Source: Intrasporangiaceae bacterium URHB0013 (GTDB taxonomy: Bacteria; Actinomycetota; Actinomycetes; Actinomycetales; Dermatophilaceae). Taken from it: a stretch of 64,000 nucleotides of DNA. The stretch spans positions 62,001 through 126,000 of the forward strand of contig JIBA01000013.1 in the NCBI GenBank assembly GCA_000620545.1. The letters run 5' to 3'. Position numbers and translations under genes: made by a program. The notes below the pieces were generated by a model, which was not told where the DNA came from, ran no database searches, and saw nothing but the letters and a program-made list of their open reading frames with translations. This document shows, one piece after another, positions 30,035 to 35,292 of the stretch (within the stretch, counting starts at the first letter, position 1; each line of letters begins with the position of its first letter).

Positions 30035-31063
30035 CTAGAGGAGTCCGGCCTGAGTCATGAGCTGCATGACCTTGGGGCCGTTGAGGGTGAACGGGTCGAT
30101 CTTCGGTGACTGGAGCGACTCGAGGGGTGGGAGTGCGGGGTCCGACGCGACGCCCTTGCCCACGGCATACTCCTTGGAGTCGGTCGTGCCGAGAACCTTC
30201 TGACCATCGGGGCTCGTGACGTAGGCGAGGAACTTCTGGGCGTCCGCAGCCTTCTTGCTGCTCTTGAGGACGCCCCCGCCGGAGAGGCTGACGAACGCGC
30301 CCGGGTCGCCGTTCTTGAAGTAGTGCAGCTTCGTGTTGCCGCTGCTCTCCTTGTCGAGACCCTGGTCGCGGTACCAGTAGTAGTGGTAGATGACGCCCAT
30401 CGGCGACTGGCCGGCGTTGACGGCCTTCATCGTCGCGATGTTGTTCTGGTAGATCTTCGCGCCGGACTCGAGGGCGGTCAGCCACTGCGACGTCTGCTGC
30501 TCTCCCTGTGTGGCGAGGACGGCCGATACGATGGCCTGGAAGTCGGCGCCACCGGCGGCGACCCCCCACTTCCCGGCGAACTCCGGCTTGGCCAGGTCCA
30601 TGAGCGAGCCGGGCAGCTGCGCTTCGGAGATGAGCGTCGGGTTGTAGACGAGCACGGTGGAGCGTGCGGCGATCCCGACCCACTCCTTCGTGGACGGGAC
30701 GTACAGCGGGTCGACCTGCGCCAGCGTGGCGGCCTCGACGGGTGCGAGCAGGCCGCCGTTCTGGACCGTCGTCATGGCGGGGGAGTTCTCGGTGAGGAAG
30801 ACGTCGGCGGGCGAGCTCGCGCCCTCCTGGACGATCTGGGCGCCCATCGAGGAGTCGTTGCCGTAGCGGATCTGGACCTGGACCCCGCTCCTGTCCTGGA
30901 ACTCCTTCGCCCACTCCTCGGTGAGGTCCTTGTGCTGCGCCGAGTAGATCGTCAGCTTCCCGGCGTCGAGCGTGCCGGTGGCCTCGAGGCTGCTGCCGCA
31001 GGCTGCCAGGGCGGCGACGGCGACAGCGGTCAAGGCGGCGAGAAGGGAAAGGCGGCGAGGCAC
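30035..31063 (-). CDS. Ferric-iron ABC transporter substrate-binding lipoprotein (FbpA/FutA-like)
   Basis: A 342-aa class II binding protein. The lipoprotein signal VPRRLSLLAALTAVAVAA ends in a lipobox with C22. The mature domain begins LTIYSAQHKDLTEEW, as in ferric-binding proteins, and YHYYWYRD carries the tyrosine pair Y228/Y229 that binds Fe3+ in FbpA. GTG 31063 has AGGAG 6 nt upstream. Two IdeR/DtxR-like boxes lie in its leader, so iron repression is expected. No permease or ATPase genes are beside it; the transport partners must be elsewhere. Confidence 0.88.
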   Translation of the reverse strand: MPRRLSLLAALTAVAVAALAACGSSLEATGTLDAGKLTIYSAQHKDLTEEWAKEFQDRSGVQVQIRYGNDSSMGAQIVQEGASSPADVFLTENSPAMTTVQNGGLLAPVEAATLAQVDPLYVPSTKEWVGIAARSTVLVYNPTLISEAQLPGSLMDLAKPEFAGKWGVAAGGADFQAIVSAVLATQGEQQTSQWLTALESGAKIYQNNIATMKAVNAGQSPMGVIYHYYWYRDQGLDKESSGNTKLHYFKNGDPGAFVSLSGGGVLKSSKKAADAQKFLAYVTSPDGQKVLGTTDSKEYAVGKGVASDPALPPLESLQSPKIDPFTLNGPKVMQLMTQAGLL

Positions 31064-31107
31064 CGGGGCTCCTGGGGTCGGTCTCGTGTCGGACGTCGGG
31101 CAGCGCC

Positions 31108-31126
31108 TTAGGAAAGGCTTGCCTAC
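31108..31126. promoter_or_regulatory. Weaker IdeR/DtxR-like box
   Basis: TTAGGAAAGGCTTGCCTAC matches about 13 of 19 positions of the DtxR/IdeR consensus, with both conserved half-site cores (TTAGG, GCCTA). It lies 45 bp before the lipoprotein start, inside its predicted leader, and may be a second repressor site. Confidence 0.5.
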
Positions 31127-31182
31127 GTCCGCGCAGACTAGCCGACGTCCGGGCCCGCCCCCAATCCCACGCTTCATTTGCG

Positions 31183-31201
31183 TTAGGTGTGCCTAACCTT
31201 A
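31183..31201. promoter_or_regulatory. IdeR/DtxR-like iron box shared by two divergent genes
   Basis: TTAGGTGTGCCTAACCTTA matches 16 of 19 positions of the DtxR/IdeR consensus (TTAGGTTAGCCTAACCTAA). TAACCT inside it can serve as -10 for the plus-strand synthetase gene, and TAAGGT on the other strand for the lipoprotein gene, so a bound repressor would silence both when iron is plentiful. Confidence 0.82.
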
Positions 31202-31213
31202 TTGACTGGGCCC

Positions 31214-33829
31214 GTGACCGTGCCCGTCCTCCGCCGTCCGCTCGCCTCTGGCCTCCCGTGGGTGTCCGGGCTGCGCGCGCACGCGGAGCGCCCCGCGCTC
31301 GTCACGGCCCGGTCCACGACGACGTATGCCGACCTCGCCGACCGCGTCGAGTCGCTGGCATCGCGACTGGCCGGCCCGCGCCGTCTCGTCCTGGTCGAGG
31401 GTGGGGCGACGCCCGACACCGTCGTCGCCTACCTCGCCGCCCTCGGGGCAGGACATGTCGTGCTGCTCGCGGCGTCGGGAGCCGGCGGTGCCGCGCCTCG
31501 GCTCCAGGCGGACTACGACCCCGACATCGTGCTGGGTGCCGAGGGGTCGGTCGAGGTGCTGCGCGAGCAGTCGGCTCATGACCTGCACCCCGACCTCGCG
31601 CTGCTGCTCAGCACGAGCGGGTCGACCGGCTCCGCGAAGCTCGTGCGGCTCTCGTGGGCCAACCTCGCGGCCAACGCCGAGCAGATCGCCGGATACCTCG
31701 ACATCCGCGAAGACGACTGTGCGGCAATGACCTTGCCGTTGACCTACTGCTATGGGCTCTCGGTCCTCAACACGCACCTTGCCGCCGGCGCATCGGTGCT
31801 GCTCACCGACCTGTCGGTCGTCGACGAGTGCTTCTGGGACCTCTTCCGGGAGGCCGGGGCGACGACGTTCCCGGCGGTGCCCCACACGTTCGAGCTGCTG
31901 GAGCGCAGCGGCTTCGCGCAGCGCGACCTGCCGCGGCTGCGCTACGTCACCCAGGCCGGGGGGCGGATGAGCGCCGAGCGCGTGAGCCGCTGGGCCGCGA
32001 CCGGACGTGAGCGGGGCTGGGATCTCTACGTGATGTACGGCCAGTGCGAGGCCACCGCGCGCATGGCCTGGCTACCACCGCACCTCGCCCTGGAGCACCC
32101 GGGCGCCGTCGGCTTGCCGGTACCCGGGGCCTCGATCGACATCGAGGAAGGCGAGATCGTCTACCGGGGCCCGAACGTCATGCTCGGCTATGCCGAGAGG
32201 CCCGCGGACCTCGCCCTGGGTCGCACGACGACCGAGCTGCGCACGGGCGACCTGGGCCGGATCACCGATGGCGGTCTCCTGCAGGTCGTGGGTCGCCGGG
32301 CGCGCTTCGTCAAGGTCCTGGGTCACCGGGTCGACCTCGACGCGCTCGAGGAGCGGCTGCGCGGCGAGGGCCACGACGTGCGCTGTGCCGGTCGCGACGG
32401 ACTGGTCGTCGTGGTGGTCGGTGACTGCGGCCCGCCGGTCGACGTGGTGCGGCGCGCGGCCCTCCGTGCCTGCGGCGTCCCGCGGGACGCGCTGCGGGCA
32501 CTCGTCGTCGACGAGCACCTCGTGCTCGGCTCGGGCAAGCCCGACTACCCCGCGATGCTGCGGCTGGCGGACGATGCGCCCGCGGAGAACGCCGACGCCT
32601 CGACCGGCGGGGAGGCGGGCGTCGCGAGGCTCTACGCGACGCTGCTGCACCGCCGCCACGTTGCGGACGACGCCTCCTTCGTGTCGCTCGGCGGCGACTC
32701 GCTGTCGTACGTCGAGGTGTCCATCCGGCTCGAGGAGCTGCTGGGTCGGCTGCCCGCGGGCTGGCACGTCATGCCGGTCGCCGAGCTCGAGACGCTGCGC
32801 CGCGACGGCGCTTCCCCGACGGGGGCTCCCGCTGCACCGGCTGGCCGGTGGCGCTCGATGGAGTCCGGGATCTGGCTTCGCTCGCTGGCCATCATCCTCA
32901 TCGTCGGCACCCACGCGGGCCTCTTCTCCCTGCAGGGCACGGCGAACGCGCTTCTCGTCATCGCCGGCTACCAGCTCGTCCGGTTCCAGCTGGGCGTGTC
33001 GGGTCGAGCCGCCCGGGTCGCGCGCATCACCCGCGCCGCCGCACGCATTGCGGTACCGGCGCTCGCCGTCATCGTCCCGGCCCACGTGCTCGGCGGCTAC
33101 TACGAGACCCGGAACCTCTTCCTCGCCAACTGGGTGTTCGGCGAGGAACGGCTGGGCCAGCCTTGGCGGTTCTGGTTCATCGAAGCCCTCGTGCTGGGCC
33201 TCGTCCTCACCGCCTGCCTCAACGCCTGGCGCAGGGGTCACCGACTCGAGCAGCGATACCCGTTCGCCTTCCCGCTCACCTTGACCCTGCTCGCCTTCGT
33301 GCTGCTACGCCTGCCGCTGCTGCCGCTCCCGGTGCCCCGCATGCACGGCTCCGCACTCGTCGTGCTCCACCTCTTCCTGCTGGGCTGGACCCTGGCCCGG
33401 GTGAGCACTCCGCGGCAGCGGCGCTGGATGACGGTGGTGGCGGTCGTCCTCATCGGGACCTTCTCCTTCAACCCCGCGCGGGACGGGCTCACGCTCGCCT
33501 TCGTGCTCGTCCTGCTGTGGCTGCCCGTGACGAGGGTGCCCGCGGTGCTCGTCCCGGCTGCCAAGGTGCTCGCCTCGGCCTCCCTGTTCATCTACGTCAT
33601 CCACTGGCAGGCCCTGGAGGTCCTCTGGGGCCGGCCGGTCCCCGCGTTCGTCGCGTCGATGGCGCTGGGACTCGCGTACTGGTGGGTGTGGACCCGCGTG
33701 GTCGAGCCCGTCACCGCAGCGCGGCTGGCGCGGCGCCGCGATGCACGGGGTCGGCACGGTGATCAGATGTCGCGGAAGACCTCGATGGTCGCGCCAAGAG
33801 CGTTGAGGCGCTCGGCGAGGTCCTCGTAG
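31214..33829 (+). CDS. Adenylation - carrier - membrane acyltransferase three-domain fusion, probably iron-regulated
   Basis: A protein of about 871 aa with three units. (1) AMP-forming adenylation domain, about 15-455, with the phosphate loop STSGSTGSAKL (from 133), MYGQCEATARM, TGDLGRITDGGLLQVVGRR and the catalytic lysine in GSGKPDY. (2) A carrier domain, about 470-535, with phosphopantetheine-site serine S496 in LGGDSL. (3) About ten membrane helices, about 550-840, resembling acyltransferase-3 proteins (SLAIILIVGTHAG, RFWFIEALVLG, LFIYVIHWQAL). It should activate an acid, load it on the carrier and pass it to an acceptor in or across the membrane, a logic like DltA-DltC-DltB. GTG 31214 is used because the iron box at 31183-31201 overlaps the alternative start at 31187. 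The 3' end overlaps murA by 67 bp. Confidence 0.8.
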   Translation: MTVPVLRRPLASGLPWVSGLRAHAERPALVTARSTTTYADLADRVESLASRLAGPRRLVLVEGGATPDTVVAYLAALGAGHVVLLAASGAGGAAPRLQADYDPDIVLGAEGSVEVLREQSAHDLHPDLALLLSTSGSTGSAKLVRLSWANLAANAEQIAGYLDIREDDCAAMTLPLTYCYGLSVLNTHLAAGASVLLTDLSVVDECFWDLFREAGATTFPAVPHTFELLERSGFAQRDLPRLRYVTQAGGRMSAERVSRWAATGRERGWDLYVMYGQCEATARMAWLPPHLALEHPGAVGLPVPGASIDIEEGEIVYRGPNVMLGYAERPADLALGRTTTELRTGDLGRITDGGLLQVVGRRARFVKVLGHRVDLDALEERLRGEGHDVRCAGRDGLVVVVVGDCGPPVDVVRRAALRACGVPRDALRALVVDEHLVLGSGKPDYPAMLRLADDAPAENADASTGGEAGVARLYATLLHRRHVADDASFVSLGGDSLSYVEVSIRLEELLGRLPAGWHVMPVAELETLRRDGASPTGAPAAPAGRWRSMESGIWLRSLAIILIVGTHAGLFSLQGTANALLVIAGYQLVRFQLGVSGRAARVARITRAAARIAVPALAVIVPAHVLGGYYETRNLFLANWVFGEERLGQPWRFWFIEALVLGLVLTACLNAWRRGHRLEQRYPFAFPLTLTLLAFVLLRLPLLPLPVPRMHGSALVVLHLFLLGWTLARVSTPRQRRWMTVVAVVLIGTFSFNPARDGLTLAFVLVLLWLPVTRVPAVLVPAAKVLASASLFIYVIHWQALEVLWGRPVPAFVASMALGLAYWWVWTRVVEPVTAARLARRRDARGRHGDQMSRKTSMVAPRALRRSARSS

Positions 33830-35292
33830 CCGCGGTTGATGACGTAGACGTTGCGCAGCACCGACGTGCCGGGCGCGGCCAGCATCGCGAGCAGCACGAC
33901 GACGCCCGGCCGCAGGGCGGGCGGGCACACGACCTCGGCCGCACGCCAGCGGGTCGGGCCCTCGAGGATGACCCGGTGGGGGTCGAGCAGCTGCACCTTG
34001 GCGCCGACCTTCGTGAGCTCGGTCAGGTAGATCGCGCGGTTCTCGTAGACCCAGTCGTGGATCATCGTGCTGCCCTCGGCGACGGCTCCGATGAGCGCGA
34101 AGAACGGCAGGTTGTCGATGTTGAGGCCGGGGAACGGCATCGGGTGGATCTTGTCGGCCGGGGCGTGCAGGGGACCGGGGATCGTCGTGAGGTCCACGAG
34201 CCGCGTCTTGCCGTTGGCCGACGTGTACTCCGACGTGAGGTTGTACTTCATCCCCATGCCGTCGAGGGTGGCGAGCTCGATCTCGATGAACTCGATCGGG
34301 ACGCGCCGGATGGTGATGGCGCTGTTGGTGACGACCGCTGCCGCGATGAGGCTCATCGCCTCGATGGGGTCCTCGCTCGGGGCGTACTCCACGTCGACGT
34401 CGATCTCGGCGACGCCGTGAACCGTGAGGGTGGTCGTGCCGATGCCCTCGATGCGCACGCCCAGCTTCTCGAGGAAGAAGCAGAGGTCCTGGACCATGTA
34501 GTTGGGGCTCGCGTTGCGGATGACCGTCGTGCCGGCGTGACGCGCGGCTGCCAGAAGGACGTTCTCGGTGACGGTGTCACCGCGCTCGGTGAGCACGATG
34601 GCCCGTTCGGGGTTGACCGTCCGGTCGGAGCGCGCCTCGTAGAACCCATGAGTTGCGGTGACCTCGAGGCCGAACGCTCGCAGCGCGGCGAGGTGGGGCT
34701 CGACGGTGCGGGTGCCGAGGTCGCAGCCACCGGCATACGGCAGCTGGAAGGCCTCGTGCTCGTGCAGCAGGGGGCCGAGGAACATGATGACGGTACGCGT
34801 ACGGCGCGCGGCCGCGACGTCGATGTCGGCGAGGTTGAGCACGGCCGGGGGCAGGATCTCGAGGTCGTTGCTGTCGGGCAGCCACCGCGTCCTGACGCCG
34901 ATCGAGGCCAGTACCTCGAGGATGCGGTTGACCTCCTCGATGCGGGCCAGGCTGCGCAGCGTGGTGCGGCCGCGGTTGAGCAGGGCGGCGCAGAGCAGTG
35001 CCACCGCGGCGTTCTTGGAGGTCTTGACGTCGATCGAGCCGGTCAGCTTCTGACCGCCGACGATGCGCAGGTGCTGGGGGCCGGAGTGGCCGACGGAGAC
35101 GAACTCGGAGTCGAGGGCGTCACCGATCTTCGCGAGCATGTCGAGGCTGAGGTTCTGCTTGCCCTGCTCGATGCGGGTGACCGCGCCCTGGGAGGTCCCG
35201 AGCTGCTCCGCGAGGTCTGACTGGGTCATCCCCTTGTGGCGTCGAGCGTCGCGGATGAGTCCGCCGATCCGGGTGAGGTAGGTCTGAGGCAC
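33763..35292 (-). CDS. murA: UDP-N-acetylglucosamine 1-carboxyvinyltransferase-like enzyme fused to an N-terminal XRE helix-turn-helix
   Basis: A 509-aa fusion. Residues 6-65 are an XRE/Cro-type DNA-binding domain (MTQSDLAEQLGTSQGAVTRIEQGKQNLS). Residues 75-509 are an EPSP/MurA-fold enoylpyruvyl transferase with SKNAA (92-96) and the catalytic cysteine C190 in AGGCDLGTR. The pocket motifs differ somewhat from housekeeping MurA, so this may be a paralogue rather than the main cell-wall enzyme. GTG 35292 has no good ribosome-binding site; a perfect 18-bp palindrome lies 12 bp upstream and is the obvious target for its own HTH. Its 3' end overlaps the convergent synthetase gene. Confidence 0.85.
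   Translation of the reverse strand: MPQTYLTRIGGLIRDARRHKGMTQSDLAEQLGTSQGAVTRIEQGKQNLSLDMLAKIGDALDSEFVSVGHSGPQHLRIVGGQKLTGSIDVKTSKNAAVALLCAALLNRGRTTLRSLARIEEVNRILEVLASIGVRTRWLPDSNDLEILPPAVLNLADIDVAAARRTRTVIMFLGPLLHEHEAFQLPYAGGCDLGTRTVEPHLAALRAFGLEVTATHGFYEARSDRTVNPERAIVLTERGDTVTENVLLAAARHAGTTVIRNASPNYMVQDLCFFLEKLGVRIEGIGTTTLTVHGVAEIDVDVEYAPSEDPIEAMSLIAAAVVTNSAITIRRVPIEFIEIELATLDGMGMKYNLTSEYTSANGKTRLVDLTTIPGPLHAPADKIHPMPFPGLNIDNLPFFALIGAVAEGSTMIHDWVYENRAIYLTELTKVGAKVQLLDPHRVILEGPTRWRAAEVVCPPALRPGVVVLLAMLAAPGTSVLRNVYVINRGYEDLAERLNALGATIEVFRDI

Follow-up and report, generated by a model that had tools for sequence, protein, structure and literature searches.

D-Alanylation of teichoic acid by the Dlt system (DltA-DltC-DltB-DltD) depends on an adenylation enzyme, a carrier thioester and a membrane acyltransferase, which moves the group to the outside. 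The epsilon-poly-lysine and delta-poly-ornithine synthetases (Pls and PosA) carry an adenylation-thiolation (A-T) module and a membrane part in one chain, activate amino acids, and possess tandem condensation-like domains between the helices. To our knowledge, the supply of ferric iron to FbpABC-type transporters in soil Actinobacteria is not settled, and we know of no enzyme of the kind described below as a part of FbpABC systems. Literature searches for such a system gave no described example among the matches listed, in agreement with the earlier note, which knew of none with this order and regulation.

The locus lies in a 64,000-nucleotide stretch of DNA from Intrasporangiaceae bacterium URHB0013 (the window). 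Its features are as follows.

31214..33829, plus strand: A-T-AT3 fusion protein of 871 aa with a GTG start (ORF calling, Pfam, full-length homologues)
31256..32578, plus strand: AMP-forming adenylation domain, residues about 15-455, with the A10 Lys442 (Pfam, alignments)
32621..32806, plus strand: carrier (thiolation) domain, residues about 470-531 (PP-binding)
32699-32701, plus strand: codon of the phosphopantetheine Ser496 in LGGDSL, conserved in 70/70 homologues
32855..33721, plus strand: membrane domain of the AT3/TmAT-like acyltransferase type, modelled with ten long helices (residues 548-836)
within 32855..33721, plus strand: key residues of the membrane domain, Arg556, His567, Gly585, Arg601, Gly724 and Tyr794
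30035..31177, minus strand: predicted FbpA-like ferric-iron binding lipoprotein (SBP), divergent from the fusion; SBP_bac_6, 72.9 bits
31183..31201, no strand: DtxR/IdeR-type iron box 1, adjoining the fusion start; 16/19 to TTAGGTTAGGCTAACCTAA
31108..31126, no strand: second iron box, closer to the SBP start; 14/19

In the ORF list of the window, the longest frame of the fusion (31187-33829, plus strand, 880 aa) opens at the first GTG. Since 31187 falls within the iron box, the GTG at 31214 is favored as the start. The features expected of an NRPS A-T module were all found: the adenylation motifs, the Lys of A10 and the Ser of the carrier. Pfam matched AMP-binding at 142.8 bits (cut-off 29.9) and PP-binding at 21.2 bits (cut-off 20.8) in the 871-aa protein, and gave no match to condensation, reductase or thioesterase domains up to E 10. 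Thus, the single reading frame, the AMP-forming domain with its A10 lysine and the carrier with LGGDSL, all claimed in the earlier note, were confirmed. In Pls and PosA, as in the fusion, the A-T module comes first and the membrane part after it on a single chain; in contrast, they use amino acids and have condensation-like domains, none of which was detected in the fusion by Pfam. The AlphaFold model of the full-length fusion had a pTM of 0.50, so that the model does not fix how the domains face one another.

The fusion family was found in 46 of the 296 sampled genomes of the class and also on plasmids of Rhizobium, Sinorhizobium and Leisingera, where and elsewhere its members are usually annotated merely as "AMP-binding protein". 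All 46 class-level matches lie in one open frame; 44 were called as whole fusions, and the other two are in frame with the A part. Three plasmid copies (R. bangladeshense NZ_CP071620.1, Rhizobium sp. NXC14 and Leisingera sp. NJS201) are in two pieces, which we take as probable local breaks. On the 46 single-frame matches, a frameshift or split artefact was rejected for the family; the three plasmid copies speak against this rejection. In a set of 23 homologues, Pfam at E <= 0.01 detected AMP-binding in 23, PP-binding in 22 and Acyl_transf_3 in 22. The neighborhood counts given below cover 70 of 77 loci, because the gene caller dropped seven (L063, L071, L073, L075, L122, L127 and L133), in all of which a matching frame was found; L053 and L129 are identical, so that one locus is counted twice among the 70.

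In the alignment, Lys442 and Ser496 are kept in all 70 homologues. The position equivalent to Asp235, the amino-group ligand, was placed two residues apart by two alignments, at residue 179 (C in 55, V in 9 and S in 6 of 70) or at Gly181 (70/70), and no acidic residue occurs at either position in the 70 homologues. The solved adenylation enzymes nearest by sequence are the oxalate-CoA ligase 5ie0 and VinN 3wvn. The fusion shares the adenylation fold and motifs with VinN-type and acyl-ACP adenylation enzymes, and its Arg283 aligns with VinN Arg331, which is proposed there to bind the second carboxylate of the substrate. Because split relatives of the fusion have the same Arg, Arg283 is no proof of a polycarboxylate substrate, and we retain it as a weak hint. 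Unlike VinN-type enzymes, the fusion lacks Asp230 and is joined to a carrier and a membrane acyltransferase. In one locus, the neighbor of the fusion is a PPTase-like gene, which scored 25.7 bits against a cut-off of 27; as such genes occurred in only two loci (one with the fusion, one with an own-genome fbpABC), a PPTase was ruled out as a constant partner.

The membrane part had been said to resemble acyltransferase-3, with about ten helices. The AlphaFold model of this domain shows ten long helices (pLDDT 89.1), as proposed. The resemblance holds at the level of the family and the fold, whereas the window protein itself stays below the Pfam cut-off: PF01757 (Acyl_transf_3, cut-off 31) scored 18.3 bits, or 22.2 bits when the C-terminus was scanned alone. 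Among sibling proteins, the score was 41.0 (L053), 27.2 (L060) and 16.2 bits (L160), and L062 gave no match at E <= 0.001. The structure comparison matched HGSNAT with Z 13.8 (rmsd 4.6, 256 residues aligned), barely above the value of about 13 below which a match may reflect a common arrangement of helical bundles, followed by GWT1 (Z 9.2) and an unrelated row (Z 5.1). These matches came only from the VIA second look; plain Foldseek gave none at E <= 0.001. No MBOAT (DltB-type) family was matched by Pfam in the 871-aa fusion up to E 10, and an MBOAT identity was rejected.

Several residues of the AT3/TmAT family (OafB, OatA and HGSNAT) are shared. The TMH1 Arg556 and His567 are each kept in 70/70 homologues with a spacing of 11, the same spacing as between the essential R14 and H25 of OafB in the accessible part of PMC9833829. 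Gly724 of TMH6 is kept in 70/70, and in the TMH9 SxxxY motif Tyr794 is kept in 70/70 and Ser790 in 68/70. The first Arg of the TMH3 RxxR motif is present in 62/70 and the second in 20/70. In the TMH2 FxxxxG motif, Gly585 is kept in 70/70, yet the Phe place is occupied by Leu (65) or Met (5). In a comparison with five ordinary AT3 domains of one and the same genome, 23/23 fusions have Leu at this place, whereas 5/5 ordinary domains have Phe, and the second RxxR Arg is missing in 15/23 fusions (50/70 overall). Owing to the replaced TMH2 Phe, we call the membrane domain a divergent branch, not a standard AT3. By family-level profile and fold, it is a divergent AT3/TmAT; it differs from other members also in bringing its own adenylation and carrier domains. 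The departures at the TMH2 Phe and the second TMH3 Arg would fit a carrier-bound donor.

Like the Dlt system, the fusion combines an adenylation enzyme, a carrier thioester and a membrane acyltransferase. In contrast to Dlt, it is one polypeptide instead of three, its membrane part is AT3/TmAT and not MBOAT, it has no Asp235-type ligand, and it is accompanied by iron boxes and an FbpABC partner. In its predicted working, the fusion is Dlt-like, but it is not a Dlt system.

Divergent from the fusion, the SBP gene likely starts at GTG 31063 (342 aa), immediately ahead of a signal peptide and lipobox. The SBP contains the motif HYYWYRD; Tyr228-Tyr229 is present in 53/53 SBPs and Cys at the lipobox position in 46/53. 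The window SBP clusters with SBPs of fbpABC operons. At L053, the permease matched BPD_transp_1 (84.6 bits) and the ATPase matched ABC_tran (112.4 bits) and TOBE_2 (46.1 bits). With a Tyr-Tyr SBP, a BPD_transp permease and an ABC-TOBE_2 ATPase, the neighbors resemble FbpABC/SfuABC, and we predict from these signatures that the set is an FbpABC-like ferric-iron transporter.

SBP, permease and ATPase genes were found within five genes of the fusion in 48/70 loci (one locus counted twice). When the loci are clustered at 70% identity, 27/45 clusters show the linkage, and the genes occur on either flank of the fusion and in several orientations. This linkage is new in this analysis. No fbp gene was found near the fusion in 18/70 loci. 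In 13/13 tested genomes from these 18 loci (one MAG and four plasmids being left out), a relative of the permease was present elsewhere, versus 3/20 fusion-less genomes, the latter being those listed among 250 non-matching class genomes and clumped by genus. Among eight proteobacterial loci inspected, one had clear iron ABC genes adjacent (Pararhizobium, an alphaproteobacterium, in a different gene order) and one had an SBP and ATPase nearby; in six, no iron ABC genes occurred in the stretch shown, for which the gene table is incomplete. Record annotation of the dropped loci places an iron SBP, permease and ATPase next to the fusion in L071 (Rhodococcus) and an SBP and ATPase nearby in L075 (Phyllobacterium), and shows no such genes in the stretch shown for L073 and L133. 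In five named plasmids, the transporter is annotated as an iron ABC transporter. Among the neighbor clusters inspected (ten representatives scanned with Pfam, the remainder judged by eye), no second biosynthetic gene recurred with the pair, so that the acid would have to come from general metabolism. The Nocardioides neighbors (acyl-CoA carboxylase-like, TetR and FAD oxidoreductase) were set aside as genus synteny.

The iron box noted earlier was found again, and the second box was added. The short palindrome TTAGGNNNNCCTAANC is matched exactly at 31183-31198; this pattern alone is weak, since 32/100 shuffles equalled the match count at two mismatches. With the 19-bp consensus, the mean number of boxes at 14/19 or more was 0 over 30 Markov resamplings of the window. 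A box of at least 13/19 precedes 50/53 SBP units and 43/70 fusion units, versus 21/532 control units, and 37/45 of the fusions that head their own unit. In the four proteobacterial copies scanned, no DtxR-type box was found. From these upstream boxes, we infer that DtxR/IdeR probably controls both the fusion and the SBP.

Based on these results, we propose with moderate confidence that the fusion is an iron-starvation enzyme, which would pass a non-amino carboxylic acid through its carrier and the AT3 domain to an extracytoplasmic acceptor and thereby aid the handover of Fe(III) to FbpA. The carboxylic acid activated by the adenylation domain would lack an alpha-amino group, might have a second carboxylate, and would be loaded on the phosphopantetheine of Ser496. 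The AT3 pore, normally used for acyl-CoA, would admit the carrier arm, and the acyl group would be handed over on the outer side to a glycan or lipid of the wall or membrane, or to a small exported molecule. Ligands of the acylated acceptor could then hold Fe(III) at the cell for the FbpA lipoprotein, which would deliver it to FbpBC for import. Iron-loaded DtxR/IdeR would turn off both fusion and transporter. The acid, the acceptor and the role in iron capture are what we infer. Of the earlier interpretation, the architecture and the iron link are supported, the iron link going further than the note through the FbpABC linkage and the boxes across the family, and the functional part is consistent with the data. 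Two findings that would have refuted it were not obtained: the C-terminal part matches an acyltransferase profile at family level, and the homologues are not generally split. More tentatively, the carrier-fed AT3 enzyme might covalently attach an iron-binding acyl ligand to the cell's own surface or to an exported anchor. Fe(III) would then be retained at the cell and go straight to FbpABC, in a mode of iron acquisition that would be new and would amount to a siderophore fixed to the wall.

With a small amine or alcohol as the acceptor, the same chemistry could instead yield a diffusible, siderophore-like carboxylate chelator whose iron enters via FbpABC. Carboxylate siderophores exist, and a single enzyme sharing its neighborhood and iron boxes with an iron transporter would suit this rather unlikely alternative; however, the clusters of recurrent neighbors that were inspected showed no biosynthetic or export gene of the chelator type. 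The accessible part of PMC3534580 describes FbpABC as aiding the use of some xenosiderophores but also as carrying free ferric ions, and in the accessible literature known AT3 acceptors are mainly surface glycans. A further alternative is a low-iron remodelling of the envelope, in which the fusion alters surface charge or permeability and has only regulation and neighborhood in common with FbpABC. In the available portions of the sources, AT3 proteins mostly decorate envelope polymers (PMC9558356), and an Acinetobacter acyltransferase is reported to promote low-iron fitness via pili and ATP and to affect pathogenesis independently of the metal content of the cell (PMC13345540). The 18/70 loci without fbp neighbors point the same way and count against our main reading. 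However, the linkage recurs irrespective of orientation and is clear in one locus of another phylum; together with the co-occurrence, this argues for a shared pathway beyond shared regulation, and we consider envelope remodelling improbable. A non-iron cargo (phosphonate, sugar phosphate or polyamine), with the fusion serving that pathway, would find support in a resemblance of the SBP to binding proteins of the phosphonate type, for which NCBIfam gave 71 bits, far under the cut-off of 392.75. We consider this reading very improbable, since the Tyr-Tyr motif (53/53), the boxes ahead of 50/53 SBP units and the five plasmid annotations indicate iron.

If the acyl-transfer enzyme is tied to FbpABC as in our preferred reading, this iron-boxed protein might be the component still lacking in the picture of how these transporters receive ferric iron. 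Furthermore, the fusion would make it testable whether an AT3 protein can use a carrier protein instead of acyl-CoA.

The fusion gene and the two boxes ahead of it are as follows.

31214-33829, plus strand: A-T-AT3 fusion of 871 aa
31108-31126: DtxR/IdeR-type box, consensus match
31183-31201: DtxR/IdeR-type box, consensus match

The adenylation-carrier-membrane order claimed in the earlier note was found in this single frame: AMP-binding and PP-binding domains precede a C-terminal part with ten long helices. The GTG start at 31214 is clear of the iron box, and that of the longest frame, at 31187, sits inside it. Against Acyl_transf_3 the C-terminus scored 18.3 bits (22.2 when scanned alone), below the cut-off of 31. 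The Nocardioides homologue L053 reached 41.0 bits, and 22 of 23 homologues were found at E <= 0.01. Thus the resemblance to acyltransferase-3, also proposed in that note, holds in the homologues, although the window protein itself stays under the cut-off. Convergent with the fusion is a gene (33763-35292, minus strand) for a MurA-like member of the EPSP-synthase family that carries an XRE-type helix-turn-helix at its N-terminus; in locus L058 a relative is found two genes away from the fusion.

The AlphaFold model of the membrane domain (23 homologous sequences) had a pLDDT of 89.1 and a pTM of 0.88. The full-length model had values of 84.5 and 0.50, so the placement of the domains relative to each other is uncertain. 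With VIA-align, the top match to the membrane model was HGSNAT (8vlg; Z 13.8, rmsd 4.6, 256 aligned), followed by GWT1 (Z 9.2); the next, an unrelated secretion protein, reached only 5.1. Plain Foldseek with this model gave no match at E <= 0.001. The TmAT hallmarks described in the parts covered of PMC12423673 and PMC9833829 were scored on 70 fusions. Arg556 and His567 (TMH1), Gly585 (TMH2), Gly724 (TMH6) and Tyr794 (TMH9) were each present in 70/70, and Ser790 (TMH9) in 68. The TMH2 Phe position was Leu in 65 and Met in 5; the first and second TMH3 Arg were found in 62 and 20 fusions, respectively. In the own genome, five ordinary AT3 domains retain this Phe and both Arg. According to the part of PMC12423673 covered, most of the conserved TmAT residues touch the donor acyl-CoA at its adenosine and pantothenic portion. 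Such residues are partly lost here, as would fit a donor attached to the protein's own carrier.

By sequence, the solved structures closest to the A domain are oxalate-CoA ligase (5ie0) and VinN (3wvn). No acidic residue was placed at the Asp235 position under either of two alignments; thus, as judged from the sequence, a typical alpha-amino acid is an unlikely substrate. Arg283 (70/70 fusions) aligned with VinN Arg331, the numbering offset being derived from the A-domain/VinN alignment. In the portions covered of PMC7756342 and PMC12186527, Arg331 is given as a proposed ligand of the alpha-carboxylate. However, this Arg also occurs in the A domains of split relatives at a Deinococcus and a Rhizobium beringeri locus, which weakens a strong reading of Arg283 as a carboxylate ligand. 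The Deinococcus locus has glycosyltransferases and, close by, an annotated acyl carrier protein gene. The R. beringeri locus (L156:1-8356) has fhuB and a TonB-dependent siderophore receptor next to it, and a small hypothetical protein adjoins its A-domain relative. The carrier gene and the small protein fit the loading of a carrier, not CoA. Transketolase halves and an LpxA-like acyltransferase also accompany the R. beringeri relative.

A full or nearly full-length homologue was present in at least 13 of 58 relatives, own genome included; the others had, among the matches listed, apparently generic AMP-binding proteins. At class level, 46 of 296 genomes matched at E <= 1e-15, one copy apiece. 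The earlier note had asked whether homologues are always split by a frameshift; all 46 are single open frames (845-1293 aa), and two-piece copies occur on three plasmids. Gene calling gave whole fusions for 44, and the remaining two were checked separately. Named plasmid matches include Rhodococcus, Mycolicibacterium, Arthrobacter, Rhizobium, Sinorhizobium and Leisingera, and among named chromosomal records an uncultured Intrasporangium MAG comes nearest (60%). On one Rhizobium plasmid (L076:8040-17831), the genes after the fusion encode an AAA ATPase and YcaO-like and TfuA-like proteins. At four actinobacterial plasmid loci (L071, L073, L130, L133), the fusion has genes for cadmium or cation transport and for signal peptidase II beside it, and three of the four also have TlpA/CcdA genes.

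Gene calling in 77 loci gave the fusion gene in 70, the caller having dropped seven. The SBP, permease and ATPase of an FbpABC-like transporter all lay within five genes of the fusion in 48 of the 70 loci, two of the three in 2, none in 18, and the SBP alone in 2 (the window, and L043 at the end of its contig). The full set was present in 27 of 45 clusters at 70% identity. On the same strand it is upstream of the fusion in 22 loci and downstream in 7; it is divergent in 7 (and one more with an extra ATPase) and convergent downstream in 8, with further variants elsewhere. Because side and orientation vary, common synteny alone does not explain the linkage. The whole own genome holds two SBP relatives, from which we estimate a chance SBP-fusion neighbourhood at about half a percent per genome. 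It also has a second, separate complete fbpABC with an iron-box-like site, 2.7 kb from an Sfp-like PPTase (contig C13, L070:14382-15065, minus strand); a relative of this PPTase adjoins the fusion in L062. A permease relative was found in 13/13 tested genomes with the fusion but without local fbp genes (two weak, E 1.6e-38 and 1.7e-29) and in 3 of 20 genomes lacking the fusion, a set clumped by genus.

Among eight proteobacterial loci, that of the alphaproteobacterium Pararhizobium is the only clear case of an iron-transporter neighbour: the fusion is divergent from ATPase, Fe(3+) SBP and iron permease genes in a different order. An SBP and an ATPase lie nearby in Phyllobacterium, their kind unstated in the annotation. 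No iron transporter genes were seen in the stretch displayed at six of the eight. In proteobacterial loci L074, L131 and L160 the fusion has a MerR-type regulator nearby, together with either a glutaredoxin or a MauE/DoxX-type protein. Among all loci, nine (L107, L140, L141, L143, L147, L148, L150, L151, L153) have both a ZnuA-type binding protein and a Fur-family regulator no more than seven genes away from the fusion.

The iron box that the earlier note placed ahead of the fusion was recovered at 31183-31201, with a second at 31108-31126; these are the only sites in the 64 kb with at least 14 matches. The region from 250 bp upstream plus 30 bp was scanned for the best match to a presumed 19-bp DtxR/IdeR consensus. 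Scores of at least 13 were obtained for 50/53 SBP units, 43/70 fusion units and 21/532 control units. Fusions heading their own unit reached 13 in 37 of 45 cases, and three of the eight misses are proteobacterial.

All 53 SBPs keep a Tyr-Tyr pair (Tyr228-Tyr229, numbered from the 342-aa start at 31063), and 46 have Cys in the lipobox position. The H. influenzae FbpA ligands include Tyr195 (PMC3534580, part covered). Thus, Fe(III) binding by the SBP is likely from its sequence.

In the parts covered, research on the AT3 fold lists fusions of AT3 with SGNH and with alanine-racemase, a review gives SGNH as the commonest partner, and a Streptomyces DmdR1 regulon study makes no mention of such a fusion. 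An Acinetobacter acyltransferase helps in low iron via pili regulation, according to part of a preprint (PMC13345540). Among the papers listed by literature searches in a collection with few subscription papers and without bioRxiv, none joined this architecture with iron uptake.

Beside the domains, conserved catalytic residues, predicted fold, transporter linkage and boxes observed, we propose that the A domain would activate an acid, probably not a typical amino acid, and load the carrier. The AT3 domain would take the acyl group from the carrier-bound donor and pass it to an external acceptor. Expression would depend on iron, and the system would capture iron for FbpA. The iron-linked fusion would thus work like Dlt, with a divergent AT3 as its own acyltransferase. 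The interpretation in the earlier note is supported in part, its acyl transfer and iron-dependent expression being predictions. The product may instead be a diffusible chelator, which we consider less likely than a cell-bound acylated acceptor. Carrier-fed AT3 acylation of an outside acceptor under iron starvation, serving Fe(III) hand-over to FbpA, stands in our judgment slightly above even chances, its support being slightly reduced by the six proteobacterial loci without visible iron genes, and the rival readings gaining marginally. The fusion belongs to a real, conserved, iron-linked and presumably acyl-transferring system, a likely partner of FbpABC, that is undescribed as far as our searches show.
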